Source of the DNA: Rubrivivax sp.
GTDB lineage: Bacteria; Pseudomonadota; Gammaproteobacteria; Burkholderiales; Burkholderiaceae_C
Assembly: GCA_027484885.1 (NCBI GenBank)
Contig: JAIXSD010000371.1
Span: 1 to 12,307, forward strand
Length of the DNA: 12,307 nucleotides
Direction of reading: 5' to 3'
A program made the position numbers and the translations under genes. Positions 160 through 12,307 of this stretch are shown piece by piece (within the stretch, counting starts at the first letter, position 1; each line of letters opens with the position of its first letter). The notes below the pieces were generated by a model. The model worked only from the letters and a program-made list of their open reading frames with translations, did no database searches and had not been told where the DNA came from.

Positions 160-444
160 TCAGCCGCCACTGAGCGCCAGCACCACGGCCACGAGATCTT
201 CGGCCGCGAGAGCGTGCTGCAGATCGCGCACGCCCAGGCCGTTGACGAAGATTCGTAGATTGGCGCGAAGCAGCCCCTGCTCATCCACCACCCGAAAGCG
301 CAGCCCCGGGTGGCGCCGCTCGAGCGCATCGAAGAGCGCATCCAGCGTGCACAGGCCCTGCGCGTTCAGCGCCTCGGCCGGCGGCAGCTCAAACTGCAGC
401 TGCGGCGCATAACTGCGCAGGGCGCCGGGCAGCATGATCTTCAT
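160..444 (-). CDS. MoaD/ThiS-like small sulfur-carrier (ubiquitin-fold) protein
   Basis: 94 residues, typical for the MoaD/ThiS beta-grasp family. The sequence opens MKIMLPGALRSY, has the family's helix segment (LDALFDALERRHPGLRFRV), the strand LRIFVNGLGVRDL, and ends L-S-G-G. The terminal Gly-Gly is the feature that E1-like enzymes adenylate and convert to a thiocarboxylate in this family. The ATG at 444-442 shares bases with the TGA of the upstream beta-propeller gene (441-443) in an ATGA overlap, so the two are probably translationally coupled. A longer reading frame extends upstream, but it runs inside the propeller gene and its extra residues are unlike the family. No MoeB/ThiF-type activating enzyme or molybdopterin or thiamine gene is in the window, so a role in either pathway is not supported. 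The family is fairly sure, the function unknown. Confidence 0.8.
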   Translation of the reverse strand: MKIMLPGALRSYAPQLQFELPPAEALNAQGLCTLDALFDALERRHPGLRFRVVDEQGLLRANLRIFVNGLGVRDLQHALAAEDLVAVVLALSGG

Positions 445-1667
445 GCCGGATCGTCCAGCTCGGCCACCTCGACGGCGTAGATCTCGGGCAGGTGGCGGGC
501 GATGTTCTGCCATTTGGCGCCCTCGTCGCGGCCGATCCAGAGCTCGCCGCTGGTGGTGCCCAGGTAGAGCGCCGGCTTGGCCTGCGCATCCACCGTCATG
601 GCCTGGCGCTTGATGGTCCACCAGGCCTGGTGCTCGGGCAGGCCTTCATCGAGGCGCTGCCAGGTCTTGCCGGCATTGCGGGTGATGTAGGCCGCCGGCT
701 GGCCGCCCGGGGCGGTGCGCGGCCAGACGTCTTGCCCATCCATGGGGAAGACCCAGGCCGTGTCCGGGTCGCGCGGGTGCACCACCATGGGAAAGCCGAT
801 GTCGCCCACGCGCTTGGGCATCTTGCGGCCGATGCGCTGCCAGACGTCGTCAGCCGGGCGGCCCGTGCGGTCCAGTCGGTAGATGCCGCAGTGGTTCTGC
901 TGGTAGAGACGGTCGGGCTGCGTGGGGCAGATGCGCAGGCAATGCGGGTCGTGGAAGGTGATGGTGCTCGGGTCAAAGCCGCCGACCACCTCCATGCCCT
1001 GGATCAGGGGGCTCCAGCTGGCGCCCCCGTCACGCGACTCATGCACGCCGCCGCCCGACATGCCGAAGTAGAGATGCTGCGGGTCACGCGGGTCGACGAT
1101 CACCGAATGCAGCTTGGGGCCGTCAGGCGTGCCATCCTGGGCCGAGCCCATCCACTCGCGGAACTGCGCGCTGTCGTTGACCGAAGCCAGAGGAGTCCAG
1201 CGCTCGCCGCCATCTTCCGAGCGAAACAGGCCTTGCGGTGAGGTGCCCACATACCAGCGGCCCGGCTCGCTGGCATGGCCCGGCGTCAGCCAGAAGCTGT
1301 GGTCCACCGAGCGGGCGGGCAGGCTGCTGCCGGCCGCCGGTGCGGCAAAGGCCGGCGGCTGGGCCGCTTCCTTCCAGCTTCGCCCCAGATTGATGGAACG
1401 AAAAATCGTCGGGCCCAGATGCCCGGTCTTGGCCGCGGCCAGCAGGGTGCGGCCATCGCGCGGGTCCAGCACCAGGTGGCTGATGGTGTGGCCCAGGAAA
1501 TGCGGGCCGTCCACCGTCCAGGTCTTTCGTTTGGCATCGCTGTGGAACAGCCAGGCCCCCTTGCGCGTGGCAACCAGCAAAACGACGCGGCGCGCCGGCT
1601 TGCTGGAGGTCTTGCGCGTGGTCTGGCGACTTGATGCGGGGGCTCGGGCGGTGCGGCTGGGGCTCAT
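441..1667 (-). CDS. BNR/Asp-box beta-propeller protein (sialidase-fold / VPS10-like), cytoplasmic
   Basis: 408 residues. The protein carries recurring Asp-box motifs of the S/T-x-D/N-x-G-x-x-W type: S91..W98 (NLGRSW), S150..W157 (EDGGERW), S211..W218 (RDGGASW), T329..W336 (RNAGKTW) and a final degenerate one at 379-386 (RDEGAKW), with a weak one at 43-50. These repeats mark the blades of a beta-propeller. Databases usually label such proteins 'exo-alpha-sialidase' or 'glycosyl hydrolase', but Asp boxes are structural and no sialidase catalytic set is evident, so enzymatic activity should not be assumed. Residues 2-27 are basic and Ser/Thr/Arg-rich, with no signal peptide, so it is probably cytoplasmic. 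The start at 1667 is chosen because AGGAG lies 8 nt upstream; upstream in-frame starts such as 1724 lack one. It is the first gene of the minus-strand operon and overlaps the MoaD-like gene. Confidence 0.82.
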   Translation of the reverse strand: MSPSRTARAPASSRQTTRKTSSKPARRVVLLVATRKGAWLFHSDAKRKTWTVDGPHFLGHTISHLVLDPRDGRTLLAAAKTGHLGPTIFRSINLGRSWKEAAQPPAFAAPAAGSSLPARSVDHSFWLTPGHASEPGRWYVGTSPQGLFRSEDGGERWTPLASVNDSAQFREWMGSAQDGTPDGPKLHSVIVDPRDPQHLYFGMSGGGVHESRDGGASWSPLIQGMEVVGGFDPSTITFHDPHCLRICPTQPDRLYQQNHCGIYRLDRTGRPADDVWQRIGRKMPKRVGDIGFPMVVHPRDPDTAWVFPMDGQDVWPRTAPGGQPAAYITRNAGKTWQRLDEGLPEHQAWWTIKRQAMTVDAQAKPALYLGTTSGELWIGRDEGAKWQNIARHLPEIYAVEVAELDDPA

Positions 1668-2067: not shown

Positions 2068-2529
2068 ATGAGCACCCAGCAAGACAGCCGCAGTGACAAC
2101 AACACCCCACCGCCTCCGTTCACCCAACAGATTTTCATCAGCCTGCCCGTGCAGGACCTGGCCGCCTCCATCGCCTTTTACGAGGCCCTGGGCTTCGCAC
2201 GCAATCCGCAGTTCAGCGATGCAGAGGGCGCCTGCATGGTCTGGAGCGAGGCCATCCACGTCATGCTGCTCAGCCACGCCAAATGGCGCAGCTTCACCGA
2301 GCTGCCCCTGCCCCCCGCCGGCACCGCCGGCCACATGCTCAACCTCTCGCTCGCCAGCCGCGAGGCCGTGGACGCGATGAACGAAGTGGCCCGAACCCAG
2401 GGCGGCCGGGCCGATGTGAACCCGGTGCAAGACCTGGGTTTCATGTATGCCCGCGATCTGGCGGACCCGGATGGGCATTTGTGGGGAGCGTTTTGGATGA
2501 ACCCGGAGGCGGCCACACCTCAAGCTTGA
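2068..2529 (+). CDS. VOC (glyoxalase/bleomycin-resistance fold) family protein
   Basis: 153 residues, the usual length of a single-chain VOC protein. Residues 21-43 ([11 protein letters not shown], then FYEALGF) match the first beta-alpha unit of the family, and residues 123-145 ([17 protein letters not shown], then AFWM) match the last strands. The pattern is closest to the group annotated as 'predicted lactoylglutathione lyase' (COG3607). Position 140 is Gly where many VOC enzymes carry the last-strand metal-binding Glu (…DGHxWE…), so metal-dependent catalysis is uncertain. The ATG at 2068 is preferred because GGGAG lies 9 nt upstream; the longer frame upstream has no family similarity. The 12 residues after the start are polar and there is no signal peptide. 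It is probably monocistronic: the next gene starts 154 nt later. Confidence 0.85.
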
Positions 2530-2683: not shown

Positions 2684-4210
2684 ATGGGAATCAAACAACG
2701 CATCTGGGCCCTCCCCGCGATCGCGGCACTTATCTTCGCCATCAGCATAGGCATCATCCTGACGGTGTCCCAGCGCACCTCGGAGACGATCAACAAGATG
2801 GGCAGCGATGCCTATCCCCACCTGCAGGCGGCGACACAGGCCCTCTCTCTGCTGGACCCGATTTCCGTGGCCTTTCAGGCGGCCGTCAGCGAGACAGAAC
2901 CCAAGCGCATCGACGACGCCAAGCACCTGACCGATAGCCTGAACGCCCATCTGGCACGCATGGCCCAGGTGGAAGGCCGGGAGGCCGCTGCGGCCCGCTT
3001 GCTGCAGGCCAGCCAGACCTACGCCATTGCCGCCGAGAACACCGCCTTGATCCTGCTGGGCAAGGCCGATGGCGAAGCCGCCGAGGCCGTGAGCGCCATG
3101 CAGGACAAGCTGAAGGCCTTGCGTGAGCCGCTGGAGCTGGAAGCCCAGCTGGCGCAAAAAAACTTCGATGAGATGCTGGTGGGCAGCCACCAAGGCGTGC
3201 GCTCCGTCGGCACGGTCACCCTGATCAGCGCCGCCTTTGTGCTGGCCGGCCTGGTGTTTGCCTCCTGGCGCATCATCAGCAGCGTCTGGGAACAGCTGGG
3301 CGCCGAACCGGCCGAGGTGCGCGAGGTCATGCAGGAAATCGCGGCCGGTGATTTGTCGCGCCGCATCGAGGCCCGCGACGCGCAGGGCACCGACCTCCTC
3401 CATGCCATTGCCAGCATGTCCCACGGCCTACGGGACATGGTCAACCAGGTACGCGATGGCGCGGGCGAGATCGCCTACGCCGCCCAAGAAATCGCAGCCG
3501 GCAACTTGGACCTGTCCAAGCGAACCGAGATCCAGGCTGGCGCGGTCGAGGTGACCACGCAATCCATGCGCCTGCTGACCGAGTCGGTGAAAGACAACGC
3601 GTCCAGCGCACGGCAAGCGACTCGCAATGCAGGCCAGGCCTGTGCCGATGCGGAACGCGGTGGCGAGGCGGTTCGCGAGGCCATCACTTCGATGCAGCAG
3701 ATCAGTGAGTCCTCACAAAAAATCTCCGAGATCACCGGTGTGATTGACGCGATTGCCTTTCAGACCAACATCCTGGCCTTGAACGCTTCAATCGAAGCGG
3801 CTCGCGCCGGCGAGCATGGCCGCGGCTTTGCGGTGGTGGCTGGCGAGGTGCGTCGCCTGGCGCACCGGGCCGCCGAGGCCGCCAAGGAGATCGCAGGCCT
3901 GATCGAGGTCTCCACCCAGCACGTGTTGCACGGCACGGACAAGGTCAACACGGCAGGCGCTGCCATGCAGAACGCCGTGCAGTCCGTCAACTCGGTGGCC
4001 ACGCTGATCACAGAAATCGCGCAGGCCAGTGACGACCAGGCCGAGCGGATCACCGAAGCAAGCCGCGCCATCGCCGGCATCGACGACAGCACACGCCAGA
4101 ACAGCGCACTCGTGGAGCAGGCCGCTGCAGCGGCAGCCAGCCTTGAACAGCAAACCCAGCGCCTGGCTTCCTTGACGCAGCGCTTCCAGACCGAGCGCCT
4201 GCCCGCCTAG
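2684..4210 (+). CDS. Methyl-accepting chemotaxis protein (two transmembrane segments, periplasmic sensor)
   Basis: 508 residues from the ATG at 2684. A short basic start (MGIKQR) precedes TM1 at about 8-28. A periplasmic, mostly helical sensor of about 145 residues follows, then TM2 at about 176-198, a HAMP-type segment (about 199-250, with [18 protein letters not shown]) and a long coiled-coil signalling domain. The hairpin tip at about 358-390 carries the conserved [16 protein letters not shown] and [15 protein letters not shown] blocks that contact CheA and CheW. The C-terminus (RFQTERLPA) has no NWETF-like CheR/CheB-binding pentapeptide. Sensor regions like this one resemble four-helix-bundle receptors, but its ligand cannot be read from the sequence. 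An upstream ATG at 2597 would add 29 very basic residues and lacks a ribosome-binding site; 2684 also lacks a clear one. No che or flagellar genes are in the window. It lies upstream of the porin modules, 158 nt apart. Confidence 0.92.
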
Positions 4211-4368: not shown

Positions 4369-5724
4369 ATGAAGTTAGCTCCTCGCCGCCACATGACGGC
4401 TCTGGCCGCCGCGCTGTTCTGCTCGGCTGCCGCCCATGCAGAGATCTCCAACGACAGCAAGACCTTGGTGCTCTCCGGTTTCGGCACGCTGTCGGCGGTG
4501 CAAACCAACAACGAGAACATCGAGTTCCGCTCGGACAACCGGCTGCCGAACGGCACCGCGAACAGCCACGAGTTCGACAACGACAGCAAGCTCGGCCTGC
4601 AGCTGAGCTACCGCCCGACAGACAAGCTGCAAGCTGTGGTGCAGCTGCTGTCGCGCCGCAACGAAGACAACAGCTTCAAGCCCTCGGTGGACTGGGCCTA
4701 TATCGCCTACAAGCCGAGCAGCGCCTTGTCGCTGCGCGCAGGTCGCTTCGTGGCACCCGTGCTCATGGGCTCGGACTACCGCAATGTCGGCTATTCCAAT
4801 GTCTGGGTTCGCCCGCCCACCGATGTCTACAACTCGGCCACCATCAACAATGTGGACGGCCTGGACGCCATCTACCGCGGTGAACTGGGTCCGTTCTCCT
4901 TCAGTGCTCAGGCCTACTACGGCAGCTACGACCTGAAGTTCAACGGCGGCTCCGGCATCAAGTTCAACCGCATGGGCGGCGTGAACCTCACCGCCGAATT
5001 GGGCAGCTGGACCTTCCGCGTCAGCCACATGGATGCCCGTCACACCAACTACCAAGCCGACGGCCAGGTTTCGCCCTCCACCCTGTTTGCAGTGAGCGAC
5101 CCCGCAACCGGCCGTGGCTATCGACTCACCCCGGGTGCAGCGACCTGCAACGCCAGCATCAAGGCGAACGTGGGGTGTTCGGACCTCTTCTCCAACTTCG
5201 ACACGGTCAACAACGCGATTCGCCGTGATCACAAGCCTTTCAACATCAGTGACATCGGCCTGGCCTACGACAACGGCAAGGTGGTCGTGCAAGCGGAGTA
5301 CATGCGGCGCAAATCCGACTCGCAACTGTCGAACTCAAGTGCTTACTACATGACTGCAGGCTATCGCTTTGGCAAGGTGCTGCCCTATGTCAGCTACTCC
5401 GGCAGCAAGACGGACACCCGTCGCCTGAGCCTGACGGCAACGCCGGCCTATGCCGCAGACGTGGCACGGCGATACACCATGGGTGAGCCCTATGTGCAGA
5501 CCTCGAACACCGACAACAACACCGTGTCACTGGGCATGCGTGTGGATGTGGCGTCCTCGGTGGCCTTGAAGTTCCAGCTGGATCGCTACACCCCCAACAC
5601 CAACAGCTTTGGCGCCACCGATGCGCAGACCATGACCCGTGTGAATGGCGTGCTGACCTCGCCCATGTCGAGCTCGGTCGGCTCCGTGAAGCTGGCGACC
5701 GTGTCGCTCGACTTTGTGTTCTGA
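4369..5724 (+). CDS. Outer-membrane beta-barrel porin-like protein, module 1
   Basis: 451 residues. A signal peptide is clear: MKLAPRRH, a hydrophobic core (ALAAALFCSAAAHA) and likely cleavage after A-H-A at residue 24. The mature part shows alternating beta-strand character throughout, is rich in Tyr, Ser and Asn, and ends in an aromatic residue (…SLDFVF), the outer-membrane assembly signal. A conserved block at 122-154 contains LRAGRFVAP and NVWVRPPTDVY. Two cysteines, C260 and C270, lie in one predicted surface loop. The start at 4369 gives a clean signal peptide with weak AGAAAG upstream; the ATG at 4342 would add nine residues without a ribosome-binding site. It is paralogous to the porin at 6306 and is followed after 10 nt by a small exported binding-protein-like gene. 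Substrate or ligand is unknown. A channel role is inferred from fold only. Confidence 0.85.
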   Translation: MKLAPRRHMTALAAALFCSAAAHAEISNDSKTLVLSGFGTLSAVQTNNENIEFRSDNRLPNGTANSHEFDNDSKLGLQLSYRPTDKLQAVVQLLSRRNEDNSFKPSVDWAYIAYKPSSALSLRAGRFVAPVLMGSDYRNVGYSNVWVRPPTDVYNSATINNVDGLDAIYRGELGPFSFSAQAYYGSYDLKFNGGSGIKFNRMGGVNLTAELGSWTFRVSHMDARHTNYQADGQVSPSTLFAVSDPATGRGYRLTPGAATCNASIKANVGCSDLFSNFDTVNNAIRRDHKPFNISDIGLAYDNGKVVVQAEYMRRKSDSQLSNSSAYYMTAGYRFGKVLPYVSYSGSKTDTRRLSLTATPAYAADVARRYTMGEPYVQTSNTDNNTVSLGMRVDVASSVALKFQLDRYTPNTNSFGATDAQTMTRVNGVLTSPMSSSVGSVKLATVSLDFVF

Positions 5725-5728
5725 GGAG
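5723..5728 (+). promoter_or_regulatory. Shine-Dalgarno of the module 1 small binding-like protein, overlapping the porin stop
   Basis: GAGGAG shares its first two bases with the porin's TGA stop (5722-5724) and lies 6 nt before the ATG at 5735 and 9 nt before the adjacent ATG at 5738. Ribosomes finishing the porin would sit on this site, which argues for coupled translation of the pair. Confidence 0.7.
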
Positions 5729-5734
5729 CGAGAC

Positions 5735-6181
5735 ATGATGTTCAAGACTCAACAGACCCACAGCTTCACTGCCGCAGCGATCGCCTTGTTTGCCTTCGCC
5801 CTGCCGACCCCAACGTTCGCCGCGGACTGGGTGCTGGTGGCCGGGGCCAAGAGCGGCATCAACAAGCTCGATGCCGACGCCGCCAGCAACCTCTACCTCG
5901 GCAAGGTGAATGAGTTGGCCGGTGTCGGCCCGGTCACGCTGATGGACCTGCCCGAGGGCAACCCGATCCGTGACAGCTTCTACGCCGACACCACCAAGAA
6001 GGACGCCAGCGCACTGAAGGCCTACTGGTCGCGCATGATCTTCACCGGCAAGGGCCAACCCCCGCGCGCGATGGACGGCGCTGCGGCCATCAAGAAGGCG
6101 CTCAGCGCCAACAGCACGGCCATCGCTTACATCGAGAAATCAGCGGTGGACGCTTCCGTCAAGGTGCTGCTGACACCCTGA
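5735..6181 (+). CDS. Small exported PstS-like 'half' periplasmic-binding protein, module 1
   Basis: 148 residues. Residues 1-29 form a signal peptide (core AAAIALFAFALPTPTFA, probable cleavage A-F-A before ADWVLVAG), leaving about 119 residues, only about one lobe of a normal PstS-type binding protein. Family marks are the SNLYLGKV block (51-58), the Y-W-S-R-M-I-F-T-G-K-x-x-P-P block (97-110), AIAYIEK (129-135) and the C-terminal DASVKVLLTP. Proteins like this are usually annotated 'phosphate ABC transporter substrate-binding protein', but it is half-size, the full-length PstS phosphate-site motifs are not evident, and no pst or other ABC genes are nearby. Phosphate binding and transport are therefore unsupported. 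It follows the porin by 10 nt and has a paralogue at 7661. A periplasmic sensing or adaptor role with the porin and the downstream c-di-GMP enzyme is my inference. Confidence 0.82.
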   Translation: MMFKTQQTHSFTAAAIALFAFALPTPTFAADWVLVAGAKSGINKLDADAASNLYLGKVNELAGVGPVTLMDLPEGNPIRDSFYADTTKKDASALKAYWSRMIFTGKGQPPRAMDGAAAIKKALSANSTAIAYIEKSAVDASVKVLLTP

Positions 6182-6206
6182 TCGGCCCTGCGGCACTGCG
6201 CAGACC

Positions 6207-6229
6207 GGCACGCCCCGCGCGGGCGTGCC
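6207..6229 (+). terminator. Strong 9-bp GC hairpin between the two modules
   Basis: GGCACGCCC (6207-6215) and GGGCGTGCC (6221-6229) pair perfectly across a 5-nt loop, 25 nt after the module 1 stop. This is the most stable stem I found in the window. No T-run follows, so it may be an imperfect terminator, an attenuator lowering module 2 expression, or a 3'-end stabiliser of the module 1 transcript. Confidence 0.45.
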
Positions 6230-6233
6230 CGGC

Positions 6234-6251
6234 CTGTGCTTGCGCGCACAG
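6234..6251 (+). other. Second hairpin in the inter-module spacer
   Basis: CTGTGC (6234-6239) and GCACAG (6246-6251) form a 6-bp stem with a 6-nt loop, 4 nt after the first hairpin. CTTGTTGC follows, a weakly U-rich stretch. Together the two stems make a tandem structure between the modules. Confidence 0.35.
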
Positions 6252-6305
6252 CTTGTTGCACCGGTTTCTTGCCCTGCCCTCTCGATCCCCCCCGCCCTCG
6301 TCCTC

Positions 6306-7655
6306 ATGTCGCTTCGTTCCACCTCGGGTCTGCCGTTCATCTGCATCCTGGCCCTGTCCACCTGCATGGCGCCAGCGCCAGCCTCGGCCTGGGCCAGTGT
6401 CGAGGACGAAAGTGCGGCCTGGACGATCTCCACCTTCGGCACCGCCTCCTTGGTTCGCGCCGAAGGCGAAGGCGTGACCTTCCTGCCTTTTGGAACCCAG
6501 CCCAGCGGCGCACGGCAGGCCTGGAAATCTGACATCGACAGCCTTCTGGGCATCCAAGCCCGTTACAGCGTGGCCAATCATGGCTCAGCCACTGTGCAGC
6601 TGACGTCCAAACGCGACGCATCCAACAACTACCGGCCCGATGTGGAGTGGGCCTATCTGTCCCTGGAGCCCGGCCACGGCTTGACGCTGCGTGGTGGCCG
6701 ATTTGTGGCGCCCTTGTTCGCGGCATCGGACACGCGCCTGATCGGCTACGCCAACCTCTGGGTGCGCCCGCCGGTCGACGTCTACACCTTGGGCATGAGT
6801 CATGTCGATGGCGCAGACCTCATCTGGCGCACCTCCTGGCGGGACAGCACGGCCCTGTTTCAACTCTGGGGCGGGCGATCGCGCCAAGCGTTTCCGCGCA
6901 GCAGCGCCAGCGGCCTGCTCACCAACCAGGCCGTCGAGTACGAAGGCATGGCAGGCATCAACCTGAGCGTGCAGCACCAGGGCCTGAGCCTGCGGTTCGC
7001 GCACCTGCGCGCGCAGCAGACCTTGATCACCACCCAAGGCAGGCCCGAGCAGGGCCTGCGCACTTTCGGCGCCAGCCAGAGCGCCTGCGTGGGCAAAGAA
7101 GCACTCGCTCGAACCACCCTGCTGTGCCGCGATCTGTACCTCGGCTTCTCCGAGCTCGAAGCCCGCTACGACGTGGACCACGCCCCGTTTCAGTTCACCA
7201 GCATCGGCCTCAATTCCGAGTGGGGGGCCTGGCGCTTGATCGGCGAGTCGATCTGGCTCCAGCATCAGTCCCGGATCGCCAACAGCCGTGCTGGCTACTT
7301 CACGCTGGCGCGCAGCCTGGCGTCGATCACTCCCTACCTGACCTTCTCCTGGCATCGGGCGTCCACCAAGGCTTTTTCGGTGCAGGTGCGCCCGGAGTAC
7401 GCCCAGCTCGTCAAACCCACGCTGAAGCTCTACAAGCCCGCCGGCGAAGAGGGCCCGCAGCAAAAGACCTGGAGCCTCGGCCTGCGCTGGGATGCCCGCA
7501 GCGGCTGGGCCCTCAAGGCCCAGGTGGACCGAATCCGCCCCCAGGGTATGGGCAATGGCATCAGCGAGCTGAACCGGATCGGCCTGGTCGGGAAGAACCT
7601 GTCCCGCGGGCCCGCCATCCATATCTACAACCTGAGCGCAGACTTTGCGTACTGA
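6306..7655 (+). CDS. Outer-membrane beta-barrel porin-like protein, module 2
   Basis: 449 residues and a diverged paralogue of the porin at 4369. The signal peptide is MSLRSTSG followed by a hydrophobic core and P-A-S-A at 25-28, with cleavage near residue 28-30. The block at 128-160 (LRGGRFVAP … NLWVRPPVDVY) is identical to the first porin at 22 of 33 positions, while the rest is much less alike. A cysteine pair, C261 and C274, sits just before DLYLGF at the place equivalent to C260/C270 and DLF of the first porin. The chain ends in Tyr (…SADFAY), as barrel proteins do. The start at 6306 is chosen for the signal peptide; no Shine-Dalgarno is visible, and the upstream GTG at 6225 lies inside a hairpin and would bury the signal sequence. 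Ligand unknown. The next gene starts 5 nt after its stop. Confidence 0.83.
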   Translation: MSLRSTSGLPFICILALSTCMAPAPASAWASVEDESAAWTISTFGTASLVRAEGEGVTFLPFGTQPSGARQAWKSDIDSLLGIQARYSVANHGSATVQLTSKRDASNNYRPDVEWAYLSLEPGHGLTLRGGRFVAPLFAASDTRLIGYANLWVRPPVDVYTLGMSHVDGADLIWRTSWRDSTALFQLWGGRSRQAFPRSSASGLLTNQAVEYEGMAGINLSVQHQGLSLRFAHLRAQQTLITTQGRPEQGLRTFGASQSACVGKEALARTTLLCRDLYLGFSELEARYDVDHAPFQFTSIGLNSEWGAWRLIGESIWLQHQSRIANSRAGYFTLARSLASITPYLTFSWHRASTKAFSVQVRPEYAQLVKPTLKLYKPAGEEGPQQKTWSLGLRWDARSGWALKAQVDRIRPQGMGNGISELNRIGLVGKNLSRGPAIHIYNLSADFAY

Positions 7656-7660
7656 AGACG

Positions 7661-8083
7661 ATGAGTCGCGCCCGCTTCATTCTGCTGGTCCTGTGCAGCC
7701 TGGCGCTCTCGCTCCAGGCGCAGGCGCAGTCCTTCGTGGTGGTGGTCGGGCCACACAGCCCGCTGAAACACCTGAGCCCGCACGACATCAGCAATGTCTT
7801 TCTGGGGCGCATCGAATCCCTGCCGGGCGCAGGCACGGTTCGGCCTGTGGAGCTGCGTGACGACGCCGAGCTGCGGCTGGCCTTCCACGCGGCCATCACC
7901 GGCATGTCCGAGCACAAGCTGCGCTCGCACTGGGCGGCCATGGTGTTCACCGGCAAGGCTCGACCACCTTGGCGCTACGAGTCGGTGGATTTGCTACGCG
8001 CGCGTCTGCAAGAAGACCCCCATGCCGTGGCCTATCTGCGGCGCCAGGATCTGGACGCCAGCCTGAAACAGGTCTTTCCCTAA
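7661..8083 (+). CDS. Small exported PstS-like 'half' periplasmic-binding protein, module 2
   Basis: 140 residues. The signal peptide is MSRAR plus a hydrophobic core (FILLVLCSLALSL), with likely cleavage after A-Q-A at residue 23 or one residue nearby. C12 is not in a proper lipobox, so it is not taken as a lipoprotein. The mature part, about 117 residues, aligns along its length with the module 1 protein: SNVFLGR (44-50), W-A-A-M-V-F-T-G-K-x-x-P-P (91-103), AVAYLRR (122-128) and DASLKQVFP at the C-terminus. Similarity is limited to these blocks, so the two copies are old paralogues rather than a recent duplication. The ATG lies 5 nt after the porin stop with only a weak GAAGACG upstream, implying translation coupled to the porin. 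As with its paralogue, the usual label of phosphate transporter component is not supported by the neighbours. The c-di-GMP gene follows after 46 nt. Confidence 0.8.
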   Translation: MSRARFILLVLCSLALSLQAQAQSFVVVVGPHSPLKHLSPHDISNVFLGRIESLPGAGTVRPVELRDDAELRLAFHAAITGMSEHKLRSHWAAMVFTGKARPPWRYESVDLLRARLQEDPHAVAYLRRQDLDASLKQVFP

Positions 8084-8103
8084 ATCCCTTCTTTTTGCGC
8101 ATC

Positions 8104-8119
8104 GAGGCGCCTGCGCCTC
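8104..8119 (+). promoter_or_regulatory. Hairpin just upstream of the EAL-protein start
   Basis: GAGGCG (8104-8109) and CGCCTC (8114-8119) form a perfect 6-bp stem with loop CCTG, ending 10 nt before the ATG at 8130. The only SD-like bases (GAGG) are in its 5' arm and too far from the start to act in a linear leader. It could modulate translation of the downstream gene. It is not a terminator, because the T-rich stretch lies before it. Confidence 0.35.
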
Positions 8120-8129
8120 TGCAGTTCCT

Positions 8130-9986
8130 ATGCACACCCCTTTCTTTCCCCGCCCCAGCAAGAGGAGGCTGAGCACCACGCCCAACAAGGAAATTGCGGG
8201 ACTGGTGGCGGCCTTGTTCAGCTTGATGCTGCTGCTCGCCGTGGTCCAGTTTCACGGCTTGAAGGCCAGCATGCTGTCTGACCTGGGAGCCGCCGCCGAG
8301 CTGATTGCGCAGAACGCCAGCCATGCCATCGTGATCGAGGACGACACGGAAGCCCACGAGCTGCTGTCGGCGCTGGCTCGCTCGAAGAACCTGCTCAAGG
8401 CTCGCCTCGAAAGCCCGGACGGACGGCTGCTCGCGGTTTACGACAAGGGGCATCAAGCCGAGCGCTGCGACGAGCTGATGCCGCTGAAGGTTTCGCGACC
8501 GGTGCTGGCCTATGGCAAACCGGTGGGGCAACTGATCCTCACTGCCTCGTCCCACAAGCTCCTGAGCTGGACCGCAGTCTTTCTCGGCATCGGCAGCATC
8601 AGCATTGCGGTGGCCTGGTTCACCTCTTGGCTGTCGGCCCGGCGCGCGGCCAAGGCCGCCCGGCAGGCCCAGCAAAAGCTGGCCTGGATGTCGCGCCACG
8701 ACCCCTTGACCGGCTGCGCCAACCGCGAGGAACTGCGCGCGCATCTGCGTGAGCGCTTCCAGAGCTCGCCCAAGCCCTCGGCGCTGTACCTGCTGGACCT
8801 CGATGACTTCACCGTGTTCAACGCGGCCTATGGCGCACACCAGGGCGATGCCATTCTTCGCGTCATCGCCCAAAGACTGCAGACCCTGGTCAAGCCGGAA
8901 GACCGCCTGGCCAGGCTGAGCGCGGACGAGTTCGCGTTGTCGCTGCAGCATGGCAGCGAGCACAGCCTGCTGGAGTTCACGACGCGCATTCAGGAGGTCC
9001 TGCGGGAACCCATCTTCGTGGGCGATGTGCCGCTGCGCGCCACAGCCTGCATCGGCGTCGCCCTGCTGCCGGACGACGCGAACAACGAAGACAGCGCGAT
9101 TCAGGCAGCGAGCGCGGCGCTGAGCATGGCCCGGCACGCCGGGCATGGCAGCGTCTGCCGCTACGAGGAAGGGCATGACCGCAAGCTGCGTGACCGCGCC
9201 GACCTGACCGATGCACTTCGCCTGGCTTTGGTGCGCGGCGAGTTTCGCCTGAACTACCAGCCCATTTACAGCGTGCACGGGGGGCGGGTGAATGGTGCGG
9301 AAGCCTTGATTCGCTGGAAGCATCCGAGCCGCGGGCTGATTTCACCCGACCGGTTTGTGCCCATCGCCGAAAGTTCCGGCCTGATTGAAGAAATTGGCCT
9401 GCACCTGCTCGGCCTGCTGCAGCGCGATCGGCAGGCGTGGCTGTGCGCGGGCCTGCAGGTGCCGCCCATCGCCATCAACATCAGCTCGCTGCAGTTTCCA
9501 AAAGAACAGTCCAAAGACCGGTTTCTGCAGCAGCTGAGCGCGCTGGAACTGGGCCCGGATGCCCTCGAAATTGAGCTGACCGAGCGCGCCGCTTTTGAGG
9601 AGCTGGAGGGCAAGGACTCCATCATTCACCGCCTCAAAGGACGTGGCTATTCCATCTCGCTGGATGACTTCGGCACGGGTTACAGCTCCCTGAGCTATTT
9701 GCACCGCATCAACTGCGACAAGCTGAAGATCGATCGGAGCTTTGTGCGGCGCATGGACGAGAACCCCAAGGCTCAGCAACTGGTCAAGGCCATCGTCGAG
9801 GTGGCGCATGCCTTCCACATGACCACGGTGGCCGAAGGTGTCGAGACCGAGGGTGAGCTGAACGCCGTGCGCAACGCGGGCTGCACCGCCGTCCAGGGCT
9901 ACCTCCTGGATCGCCCGCTGGATGCGCAGGCCTTCGGGGAGCGGCTGGCGGCCTTGAACGGCAGGGCTTCCGAAGACGCGGCGTGA
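8130..9986 (+). CDS. Membrane c-di-GMP protein: CHASE8-like periplasmic domain, degenerate GGDEF, intact EAL
   Basis: 618 residues. TM1 is at about 22-41. A periplasmic domain at about 44-144 carries the CHASE8-like pattern (DLGAAAELIAQNAS, then DD.EAHELLSALARSKNL, then ARLESPDGRLLAVY) known from YfiN-type proteins. TM2 is at about 146-168, and only about 20 residues precede the GGDEF domain, so HAMP is absent. In the GGDEF domain (about 188-347) the signature is S-A-D-E-F (264-268), the I-site is K-P-E-D rather than RxxD, and the usual FKxIND…GHxxGD block is altered, so cyclase activity is doubtful. The EAL domain (about 355-610) keeps its key residues: E391-A-L, N450, E482/E485 (ELTE), D512-D513-F-G-T-G, K533, E569-G-V-E572 and Q589. 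It probably hydrolyses c-di-GMP. It starts 46 nt after the second small periplasmic protein and is likely its partner (inference). No Shine-Dalgarno is visible; an AGAGGAGG run at 8161-8168 is inside the gene and followed only by an in-frame CTG. Confidence 0.9.
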   Translation: MHTPFFPRPSKRRLSTTPNKEIAGLVAALFSLMLLLAVVQFHGLKASMLSDLGAAAELIAQNASHAIVIEDDTEAHELLSALARSKNLLKARLESPDGRLLAVYDKGHQAERCDELMPLKVSRPVLAYGKPVGQLILTASSHKLLSWTAVFLGIGSISIAVAWFTSWLSARRAAKAARQAQQKLAWMSRHDPLTGCANREELRAHLRERFQSSPKPSALYLLDLDDFTVFNAAYGAHQGDAILRVIAQRLQTLVKPEDRLARLSADEFALSLQHGSEHSLLEFTTRIQEVLREPIFVGDVPLRATACIGVALLPDDANNEDSAIQAASAALSMARHAGHGSVCRYEEGHDRKLRDRADLTDALRLALVRGEFRLNYQPIYSVHGGRVNGAEALIRWKHPSRGLISPDRFVPIAESSGLIEEIGLHLLGLLQRDRQAWLCAGLQVPPIAINISSLQFPKEQSKDRFLQQLSALELGPDALEIELTERAAFEELEGKDSIIHRLKGRGYSISLDDFGTGYSSLSYLHRINCDKLKIDRSFVRRMDENPKAQQLVKAIVEVAHAFHMTTVAEGVETEGELNAVRNAGCTAVQGYLLDRPLDAQAFGERLAALNGRASEDAA

Positions 9987-10011: not shown

Positions 10012-10033
10012 TCAGTCACAAGCATCAGTCACA
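10012..10033. repeat. Short tandem repeat at the 3' end of the regulator gene
   Basis: TCAGTCACA occurs at 10012-10020 and 10025-10033, a 13-bp period. The second copy contains the regulator's stop codon on the minus strand. A smaller tandem repeat, GGCCTCA x2, adjoins at 10001-10014. These fill most of the 38-bp spacer between the convergent genes and look like slippage duplications. Confidence 0.5.
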
Positions 10034-12307
10034 GGCCTGGGTCAGCAGCTGGCGGCTGGGGTCGACGGGGCCACCAAGCAGTGCTTGCAAGCCACTCGGG
10101 CTGGCCCAGGCCATGGCATTGCGCTGCAGGGCAGGCAGCTGATCCAGACACGCTTGCCATGAACGCGAGCAGGACTCGGGCGGCTCTGACGAGTGCGCCA
10201 GCCGCCATGCGTAGGCCGTCTGCAACAAGGCGGTGGGCGCGTGCTCCGCGCTCATGCGGGCGACGGATTTCATGAGCAGCTCCAGCTCTTTGAGCTTGCC
10301 CTGCTCCAGCAGCATCCAAGCCAGATCGATGGCCAGGTCTTGGCCTGCCGCCCCATCGCTGGGCTCGGTGGTCCAGGCCGAACGCAAGCAAGCTCTGGCC
10401 TCATCAAAGCGGCCTTGATGCAGGAGCAGGGCGGCTTCGCAGCGCGCCCGACGCGCGGCATTGGCATCGTCGGCCAGCACGAGGAAGACGGCTTCCGCCT
10501 CCGCCCGTCGGTCCAGGCTGAGGTACCAGCCACACAGCAAGGAGGCGCACAGCCAGCGGGTGTACCAACCCCACTGCCGCGCCAGTGCCAGCATCGCCTC
10601 CATCTGCTCAATGGCGGCGTCATGATGGCCCTGCCGCCACTTCATATGCGCCTCGGCTCGCGCCAACGCCGAGCTCAGGTAGATTGGGGCCTCTGCCCCC
10701 ATCAGGCTTTGGCACTCTCGCACATTGGCCTCGGCTTCGGAGAGGCGGCCGGCATCAACCAAAACAAAAGTCTCCTGAATGCGCGAGCCGATGAACTTGC
10801 CCTTGAAGCCCAGGGTGTTGCTGAGCAGCGCGGCACGGCGGGTGGCTTCCACAGCGCCAGCGAACTGCCGCACCATGCCCAGGGCGGTGCCCAGTGACTG
10901 GTAGGCCTGCAGCTCGACACGGGTGAGCCCGCGCAGGCGGGTTTCACGCACCACAGCGCGCAAGAGCTCGATGGCTTTGGGCAGGCGCGGCACCGACATC
11001 AGCACATGCCCGTGCAAACAGGTCGCCAGCTGCTCGCGGTAGACATCGCCCACCGCCCTGGCCGCCTCCACCGCACGGGCCGCCGTCTTGGCCGCCAGCT
11101 CAGCCTTGCCTTGAAAGCGCTCCATGTCGGCGCGTGCGATCAGGATGTTGGCCAGCACGGCCGCACTGGCCTCGCCGGAGAACACCAGCCCCATGCCCTG
11201 TTCACAGCAGCGCTGCGCCGCCACCAGGTCGCCCGAGTTCACTTCGATGCGGCAGAGCTCTGCGTAAATGTCCACCTGAAGATCGGTCTGATGCTCGGCC
11301 TGCGCGCCGCGCAATGCCTCGGCTGCCGTGCAGCGGGCACGCTCCATGTCGGCAGTCTGCTCGCGCAACAAGCGGGCATGAACCAAACGCATGCGCGGCG
11401 TGACCTGGAGCTGCTGCATGCACGACTCCAGCAAGGGCAAGGCTGCGCCAAGCTCCCCGCGAAGCTCGCAGTCAAAGGCCCGCGCCAGCTGCTCCTCCCA
11501 AAACACCGGGGCAGGATCGCGGCTGGGCGCAGCCAGCGCATCGACGTAGGACACCACAGCAGAAGCCAGCGCGACCAGATCCGCGCCTTGAAACACCCGT
11601 TGCTCCAGGTCCGACTCCTTGCTGCCCAGCAAGGTCTGCAGACGGAAATCACCGGCCGGGGTTCGCGCGAACCGACACAGCAGCGCGCGCTCCGTCCCCA
11701 GCTGCTGGCAAGCCTGCGCCAAAGCCTCGGCGCCCCAGGTGGCGATGCCGTGCCAATCGCCGGTCGCATTGATGCTGGCGACGGAGATCCGGCCTTTGGT
11801 TTCCAGCTGGTGGTGGACCAAACCCGCCAAGCCGCGCTCAGCCCAGCTCAGCTGCGGATCGCCCGCCTCGTTCCAAAAAGGCAGCACGGCCAGCGCCGGC
11901 TTGATCGAAGAGACCGATGGCTGCTCCGCCGGCACACTCTCTGCCGTGGCCGTTGCCGCGGTCGGCGGGGCCTCAGCCTCCCGAGGTGCCGCCGCCTCGT
12001 CCTCCATGACCGTGACGTCGGCGTCGAACCGGTAGCCCACCCCACGGATGGTGGTGATCAAGCCCTCGGTGCTGGCGTCGTCCGAGATCAGCCTGCGCGC
12101 CTTCATCACGGCACGAGCGACCACCGAGTCGCTCACAAAAGTCGTGCCCCAGACCGCCTGCAGCAACTCATCCTTGCTGAGCACGCGATTGGGATGGCTG
12201 GCAAGAAACAGCAGCAACTCGAAGATCAAGGGCTGTATCGCCACCGGCTGCTGACCCACCATCAGCCGATGCCGCGTGGTATCGATGACGCACTGATGGA
12301 AGCAATA
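10025..12307 (-). CDS. Winged-helix transcriptional regulator with TPR-like C-terminus (N-terminus cut by the right edge)
   Basis: 760 codons are visible and the frame is still open at the window edge. The first visible residues (Y-C-F-H-Q-C-V-I-D-T) fit the N-terminal strands of an OmpR/PhoB-type domain, so the true start lies just outside and the internal ATG at 12262 is not it. The winged helix covers about visible residues 1-95, with LSKDELLQAVWG, VVARAVMKARRLI and TTIRGVGYRF. An Ala/Pro/Glu-rich linker follows, without a membrane segment, so unlike CadC it is soluble. Next is an AVLPFWNEAGDPQLSWAERG block like that following the linker in other wHTH-TPR regulators, and then about 500 residues of Ala/Leu/Arg-rich helical pairs typical of TPR or SEL1-like repeats. 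No receiver domain is seen. It converges on the EAL gene with a 38-bp gap, so it is not in that operon, though it could regulate it. Signal and targets are unknown. Confidence 0.85.
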   Translation of the reverse strand, partial: YCFHQCVIDTTRHRLMVGQQPVAIQPLIFELLLFLASHPNRVLSKDELLQAVWGTTFVSDSVVARAVMKARRLISDDASTEGLITTIRGVGYRFDADVTVMEDEAAAPREAEAPPTAATATAESVPAEQPSVSSIKPALAVLPFWNEAGDPQLSWAERGLAGLVHHQLETKGRISVASINATGDWHGIATWGAEALAQACQQLGTERALLCRFARTPAGDFRLQTLLGSKESDLEQRVFQGADLVALASAVVSYVDALAAPSRDPAPVFWEEQLARAFDCELRGELGAALPLLESCMQQLQVTPRMRLVHARLLREQTADMERARCTAAEALRGAQAEHQTDLQVDIYAELCRIEVNSGDLVAAQRCCEQGMGLVFSGEASAAVLANILIARADMERFQGKAELAAKTAARAVEAARAVGDVYREQLATCLHGHVLMSVPRLPKAIELLRAVVRETRLRGLTRVELQAYQSLGTALGMVRQFAGAVEATRRAALLSNTLGFKGKFIGSRIQETFVLVDAGRLSEAEANVRECQSLMGAEAPIYLSSALARAEAHMKWRQGHHDAAIEQMEAMLALARQWGWYTRWLCASLLCGWYLSLDRRAEAEAVFLVLADDANAARRARCEAALLLHQGRFDEARACLRSAWTTEPSDGAAGQDLAIDLAWMLLEQGKLKELELLMKSVARMSAEHAPTALLQTAYAWRLAHSSEPPESCSRSWQACLDQLPALQRNAMAWASPSGLQALLGGPVDPSRQLLTQACD

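Follow-up and report, generated by a model that had tools for sequence, protein, structure and literature searches.

A candidate trans-envelope sensory relay of porin-like barrels, single-lobe PstS-like proteins and exchangeable receptors in Rubrivivax sp.

Why should two porin-like genes alternate with genes for what look like halves of a phosphate-binding protein, and why should this series lie between two signalling receptors? The question is raised by positions 2684-9986 of contig JAIXSD010000371.1 of Rubrivivax sp. (assembly GCA_027484885.1). The window analysed here (12,307 nucleotides) is this entire 12.3 kb contig, part of a fragmented genome assembly (4.06 Mb, 779 contigs, 76% complete). 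An earlier note on this DNA had described an outer membrane barrel and a small periplasmic protein, twice in tandem, followed by a CHASE8-type protein with cyclic di-GMP (c-di-GMP) domains, and the five genes are indeed open and in that order (barrel1, small1, barrel2, small2, CHASE8-GGDEF-EAL). To these we add the gene of a methyl-accepting chemotaxis protein (MCP), which ends 158 bases before barrel1; the following gaps are 10, 124, 5 and 46 bases (Table 1). We propose, with a probability of roughly 55%, that the locus encodes a trans-envelope sensory relay.

Barrel1 is predicted to be a general-porin-like outer membrane barrel. Its AlphaFold2 model shows 16 long strands (predicted local distance difference test score 83.7), and the PDB matches listed for it by Foldseek are porins, with template modelling scores normalised to the query of about 0.5. 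The fold is that of the general 16-strand porins (OmpF, PorB, Omp32), from which this family differs by its coupling to a half-PstS gene and by sequence, no PDB chain matching the barrel family profile at E up to 1. Barrel2, predicted from its sequence to be a porin-like barrel, has orthologs of 61-63% identity in two related loci described below (L094, L095). A C-terminal Phe closes 119 of the 128 barrels in the family, barrel1 included, and barrel2 ends in Tyr. Porin_4 was matched in 21 of 52 aligned barrel relatives (E up to 0.01) and not in barrel1; our local profiles were built iteratively from the fetched loci, so the one for barrels may have taken in other porins. Neither the two barrels nor the two small proteins match a Pfam or NCBIfam family above cut-off.

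Of special interest are the small proteins. For small1, export and the fold of a single PstS-type lobe are predicted: residues 30-148 of its model align to a single lobe of PstS (for example residues 109-234 of 4gd5), and the two-lobe architecture that closes on a ligand is missing from the model. Small2 appears from its sequence to be a second half-PstS. The lobe kept here is the one that, in E. coli PstS, carries what we take to be the phosphate motif Arg..SerGlyThr. When these positions were mapped by alignment on 81 small proteins, the Arg was replaced by Gln or Leu in 74 and the Gly by Pro or Ala in 67, and the Thr position held Thr or Ser in 16; judged from these alignments, the phosphate motif is mostly lost in the family. 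The invariant residues are W98, G105 and P110, all within a W..FTGKGxPP segment; the first two belong to a stretch absent from PstS 4exl, and P110 comes after that stretch.

The two receptors are of different types. The MCP is predicted to cross the membrane with two helices, and Pfam assigns no family to its short periplasmic domain. The CHASE8-like periplasmic domain proposed in the earlier note is recognised by Pfam in the last protein (PF17152, residues 45-137, 42.6 bits against a cut-off of 27; orthologs score 29-39 bits), together with GGDEF (99 bits) and EAL (233 bits). The GGDEF motif is degenerate (SADEF) in the window protein and in its relatives at L094-L096. As the EAL motifs are intact in all four (EALIRW, INIS, ELTE, DDFG, KIDR, EGVET), this protein is predicted to be a c-di-GMP phosphodiesterase.

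The gene order can be compared with that of three orthologous loci. L094, from a Roseateles metagenome-assembled genome, keeps the order barrel-small-barrel-small-CHASE8 on a contig that stops short of any MCP; all six genes are present in L095 (Paucibacter sp. TC2R-5); and L096 (Roseateles asaccharophilus) has an MCP, one barrel, one small protein and the CHASE8 gene. The MCP stands upstream of barrel1 in both close relatives whose contig reaches that far (L095, 80% identity; L096, 62%). Every gene found in L094 and L095 gives a pairwise ratio of nonsynonymous to synonymous substitution rates (dN/dS) of 0.09-0.25, several dS values being near saturation, and the four genes common to the window and L096 give 0.23-0.37. 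Conserved gene order together with low dN/dS in L094 and L095 makes the grouping more than a chance one. Because barrel2 and small2 match only the first barrel and first small protein of L096, that locus amounts to one module beside two receptor genes. The two tandem modules described in the earlier note are present in the window, but they are not a recent duplication, the barrels being 32% and the small proteins 29% identical.

The earlier note had named a survey of genomes as a check on its reading and the lack of a recurrent neighbourhood as grounds for refuting it; on this count the reading stands, for the neighbourhood recurs in many proteobacteria. Small1 has matches in 28 of 150 genomes of the order, and the family profile in 78 of 276 genomes of the class (66 of 216 genera), the window's genome being included in both. 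The family expands within genomes, with 8, 7 and 6 half-PstS matches in three of them (G175, G318, G187). We examined 39 regions from the order, covering all 42 matches outside the window's own genome; 40 from the class, hand-picked at one for each of 40 of the 77 other matching genomes, most of them strong matches flanked by sequence on either side; and 80 named loci. The named set is biased, as it was searched for with patterns drawn from close relatives and limited to the best 80 of 375; this applies less to the other two samples. Each small protein was a counting unit, scored for a co-oriented barrel within 1.5 kb and a signalling domain within 4.5 kb; one locus in two short pieces (L091) was dropped, and L057 was scored as signalling-positive even though the CHASE8 gene there, which is also that of L195, comes with its own YfiR. 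A barrel was found for 36 and a signalling gene for 32 of the 41 small proteins in the order sample, for 37 and 32 of 41 in the class sample, and for 84 and 80 of 87 in the named sample, and none in any sample lacked both. In 27, 24 and 77 cases (order, class and named samples, here and below) a signalling gene shared the strand of the small protein. Signalling open reading frames are concentrated near the small proteins: per kb, 0.127 at 0.5-3 kb against 0.038 at 4.5-7 kb in the order (3.3-fold; far count 7), 0.134 against 0.007 in the class (18-fold; one far frame) and 0.237 against 0.044 in the named loci (5.4-fold; far count 15). The most constant neighbour of the small protein is the barrel and not the receptor; the barrel precedes the small gene in 112 of 125 pairs, with a median gap of 11 bases.

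Plasmids provide an independent annotation of the same arrangement. Of 21 matching records ten were examined and nine carried annotation; in seven of these nine an MCP or GGDEF/EAL gene lies beside the barrel-small pair (Ideonella, two Caballeronia, Massilia, two P. aeruginosa and, on the opposite strand, one Pseudoalteromonas), and two have no such neighbour (P. xiamenensis, Alteromonas). Their small proteins are annotated as phosphate ABC (ATP-binding cassette) transporter binding proteins or as hypothetical. The former label misleads, as these are predicted half-proteins whose motif is mostly lost, and an open reading frame with ABC-ATPase motifs was found within 2.5 kb at only one of 119 related loci, in a scan that covered ATPases and not permeases. 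The absence of a transport ATPase or permease, noted earlier from the sequence, likewise holds for the nine window proteins scanned, none of which matches a transporter family; a 94-residue frame at 160-444 lay outside that scan. On the Alteromonas mediterranea plasmid MRG65-300 (L179), a half-PstS gene and, downstream of it, a hypothetical gene with the length of a barrel gene neighbour type IV CRISPR csf genes; none of the genes in the 12 kb shown is annotated as signalling.

The receptors found beside the module are chemoreceptors, histidine kinases and GGDEF-EAL proteins. A tree of the small proteins with 133 rows (58 next to c-di-GMP proteins, 33 to MCPs, 13 to kinases and 29 unlabelled) implies 12 changes of output type among its 104 labelled rows, where the least possible is 2. 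Output types are nevertheless clustered, none of 500 shuffles being as low for any output, and near-copies help this clustering; the tree was built by a quick search on 125 columns and many of its forks are open. Input domains vary as well: CHASE8 in the window's clade, dCache_3 in L087 and L093, and dCache_1 below cut-off in L109 and weaker in L122. Pfam names none in the two MCPs scanned (window, L104), nor in the four scanned (L071, L072, L076, L078) of six partners that belong to other families (A5); the input domain of these six (L071-L073, L075, the kinase of L076, L078) matches a 24-member CHASE8 profile (hhalign 88.6%, E 2.7e-6). The module is therefore not specific to c-di-GMP, and CHASE8 is one of several input domains. 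Of the possible envelope-to-c-di-GMP system proposed in the earlier note, the recurrent neighbourhood holds and the restriction to c-di-GMP does not.

The closest known kind of system is YfiB-YfiR-YfiN (with YfiN also called TpbB) of P. aeruginosa, a parallel that was drawn from the sequence alone and that gains from the surroundings of other CHASE8 genes. Of 65 CHASE8 places 30, not including that of the window, were sampled with flanks of 1.5 kb; a YfiR gene adjoins in 21 (on the opposite strand in one, L192) and a half-PstS in none. In the window, and also in L094-L096, half-PstS takes this slot beside the CHASE8 gene. Both systems have a CHASE8-type inner membrane receptor (its domain is termed PAS in the papers), an outer membrane partner and, encoded beside the receptor, a small periplasmic protein that resembles a single binding-protein lobe, and in both the outputs vary among GGDEF, GGDEF-EAL and kinases. 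Four differences set the window system apart. YfiR belongs to DUF4154 (PF13689), which has no match in small1, small2 or 48 family members scanned, and the window's small protein is a predicted PstS-type lobe; YfiR is not among the 50 structural matches listed for the model, which says little. YfiB is an OmpA-type lipoprotein and the window's partner a predicted porin, with no OmpA match in the nine window proteins scanned. The window enzyme is a predicted phosphodiesterase with a degenerate GGDEF, lacking the intact GGDEF output of YfiN. Finally, the half-PstS module adjoins chemoreceptors and dCache receptors too. The window's genome also has consecutive DUF4154, CHASE8-GGDEF and OmpA genes, a YfiR-YfiN-YfiB-like set, on another contig (G000:C746, L232:2043-4628).

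On these grounds we suggest how the relay might work. Each half-PstS would dock on its porin and, depending on the porin's cargo or state, also on the periplasmic domain of a receptor, by analogy with YfiR, which alternates between YfiB and YfiN. Through CHASE8, small2 would control the breakdown of c-di-GMP, and the target of small1 would be the chemoreceptor, the CHASE8 protein or the two together. With its second lobe and most of the phosphate-holding residues lost, half-PstS is more likely a docking piece than a free ligand binder, and W..FTGKGxPP is the best candidate contact surface, since W98 and G105 lie in the stretch that 4exl lacks and P110 comes next. In two loci an SBP_bac_3-type domain and a downstream half-PstS domain share one open frame (L084:6187-7323, 35 bits; L085:6142-7296, 27 bits; cut-off 26.4); in L026:2082-3062 the upstream domain is below cut-off, and in L023:2274-3143 Pfam finds none. 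These frames adjoin barrels in L084, L085 and L026. The shared frames suit a docking role and suggest that the half-PstS part is a connector open to the addition of a ligand-sensing part. We rejected another fusion as evidence of interaction, a barrel and small domain in one open frame in L059 and L148, whose contigs are equal in length and content: the barrel is shortened, no signal peptide stands between the parts, and we read it as a deletion or assembly product. Both were therefore kept off the tree, and they stay in the neighbourhood counts.

Several observations weigh against a sensory relay. The first Ser of the phosphate loop is still Ser or Thr in 49 of the 81 small proteins, and half-PstS has no sequence relation to YfiR (hhalign 3.4%). 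With receptor inputs as diverse as CHASE8, dCache_3, a weak dCache_1 and unclassified domains, one docking mode cannot be assumed. Signalling genes lie only on the other strand in 5, 8 and 3 cases, and the small proteins without a signalling neighbour all have a barrel (9 of 9, 9 of 9 and 7 of 7), so the barrel partnership needs no adjacent receptor. The window's own genome has nine small-protein matches, of which the pair on contigs C378 and C411 probably represents the two ends of a single gene; among the seven counted, six have a barrel and three a signalling gene on the contig piece, leaving four without one on mostly short contigs. Paralogous barrels and small proteins co-diverge clearly in one genome (r 0.95, 1 of 120 permutations) and weakly in the window's (r 0.33, 337 of 5040).

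Since the barrel is the most constant neighbour, the main alternative is a unit for uptake or porin maintenance, in which half-PstS receives a solute, gates the porin or helps to assemble it, and receptors lie nearby through a shared nutrient without touching the small protein. Barrel adjacency is steadier than receptor adjacency, down to the small proteins that have a barrel and no signalling gene, and the SBP_bac_3 fusions could be solute acceptors. We nonetheless think this explanation unlikely, if worth keeping in mind: ABC-ATPase motifs are almost absent from the related loci, 32 of 41 small proteins in both the order and the class have a signalling gene, of one of three output types, within 4.5 kb, half-PstS sits where CHASE8 relatives often carry YfiR, a known regulator, and 5, 4 and 3 small proteins lie near signalling genes with no detected barrel, some of which may have been missed.

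A stronger likeness to YfiR, in which half-PstS is a brake that reports redox or envelope stress and the porin a stress gauge with no solute, would explain the slot beside CHASE8 and the loss of most phosphate residues. We regard it as improbable. YfiR has conserved cysteine pairs, one of them required for folding (PMC4655355), but mature small1 and small2 have no cysteine, nor does the A1 or A3 consensus. Porins replace the peptidoglycan-binding YfiB, and the frequent chemoreceptor neighbours fit solutes better than stress. A chance run of unrelated genes, to which the unproven direct interaction leaves a sliver of credit, is largely refuted by the conserved order in L094-L096, the recurrence in two broad genome samples and the independent plasmid annotation, and a single inherited accident fits poorly with the output changes on the tree.

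Two further systems resemble the proposed relay. In Vibrio cholerae NspS, a periplasmic binding protein of two lobes, regulates the GGDEF-EAL receptor MbaA; NspS binds polyamines and is homologous to ABC solute-binding proteins, and the partial accounts available mention no porin partner. In P. aeruginosa, a PstS-class protein docks on the chemoreceptor CtpL, which itself does not bind the ligand; that PstS is complete, binds phosphate tightly and is part of a transporter (PMC4926252), whereas the window's protein is one lobe with a porin neighbour and a phosphate motif mostly lost. Parts of the design have been described before: YfiR is likened to a single lobe of a binding protein (PMC4655355), and YfiR-YfiN modularity is reported with varied outputs, GGDEF-EAL in some relatives and two YfiR copies in Thauera (PMC3375315). 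A 2022 review of c-di-GMP inputs (PMC8846402) states that SBP_bac_3 was the one member of the binding-protein clan whose part in c-di-GMP networks had been studied, and a paper on V. parahaemolyticus biofilm lists a raised gene annotated like these small proteins (PMC9309355). Judged by title and opening of the abstract, we found no description of a porin, half-PstS and receptor combination in the literature searched, which leaves most subscription journals and preprints outside its coverage.

A broader, tentative idea, to which we give less than even odds, is that a PstS lobe freed of phosphate binding serves as a reusable trans-envelope plug between a porin and any receptor, with YfiR, a lobe from another class of binding protein, as an independent second invention, and that porin occupancy may be read out in this way. 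Should the relay exist, many chemoreceptors, kinases and c-di-GMP enzymes near half-PstS genes would have an outer membrane input, and its existence would suggest at least two recruitments of single binding-protein lobes as periplasmic messengers.

Table 1. Genes of the Rubrivivax sp. window, those of the proposed relay first.
Feature	Position	Strand	Evidence or context
MCP, first receptor of the locus	2684-4210	+	MCPsignal 162.8 bits
barrel1, predicted 16-strand general-porin-like outer membrane protein	4369-5724	+	AlphaFold2 model, Foldseek, C-terminal FVF
small1, predicted exported single-lobe PstS-like protein (half-PstS)	5735-6181	+	10 bases after barrel1
barrel2, divergent second porin-like barrel (predicted)	6306-7655	+	profile and pairwise identity; C-terminal FAY
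small2, second half-PstS (predicted)	7661-8083	+	family match E 1.3e-17 to small1; 5 bases after barrel2
CHASE8-GGDEF-EAL inner membrane protein	8130-9986	+	Pfam, predicted helices, motifs; adjoins small2
OmpR-type winged-helix domain and TPR repeats	10025-12262	-	converges on the sensor genes
BNR/sortilin-repeat protein	441-1667	-	
Glyoxalase/bleomycin-resistance (VOC) family protein	2068-2529		upstream of the MCP

A search for promoters and terminators gave no signal above shuffled background. Among the genes around the locus, the winged-helix/TPR gene could be an unrelated regulator, and the small frame at 160-444 presumably encodes a MoaD/ThiS-like protein.

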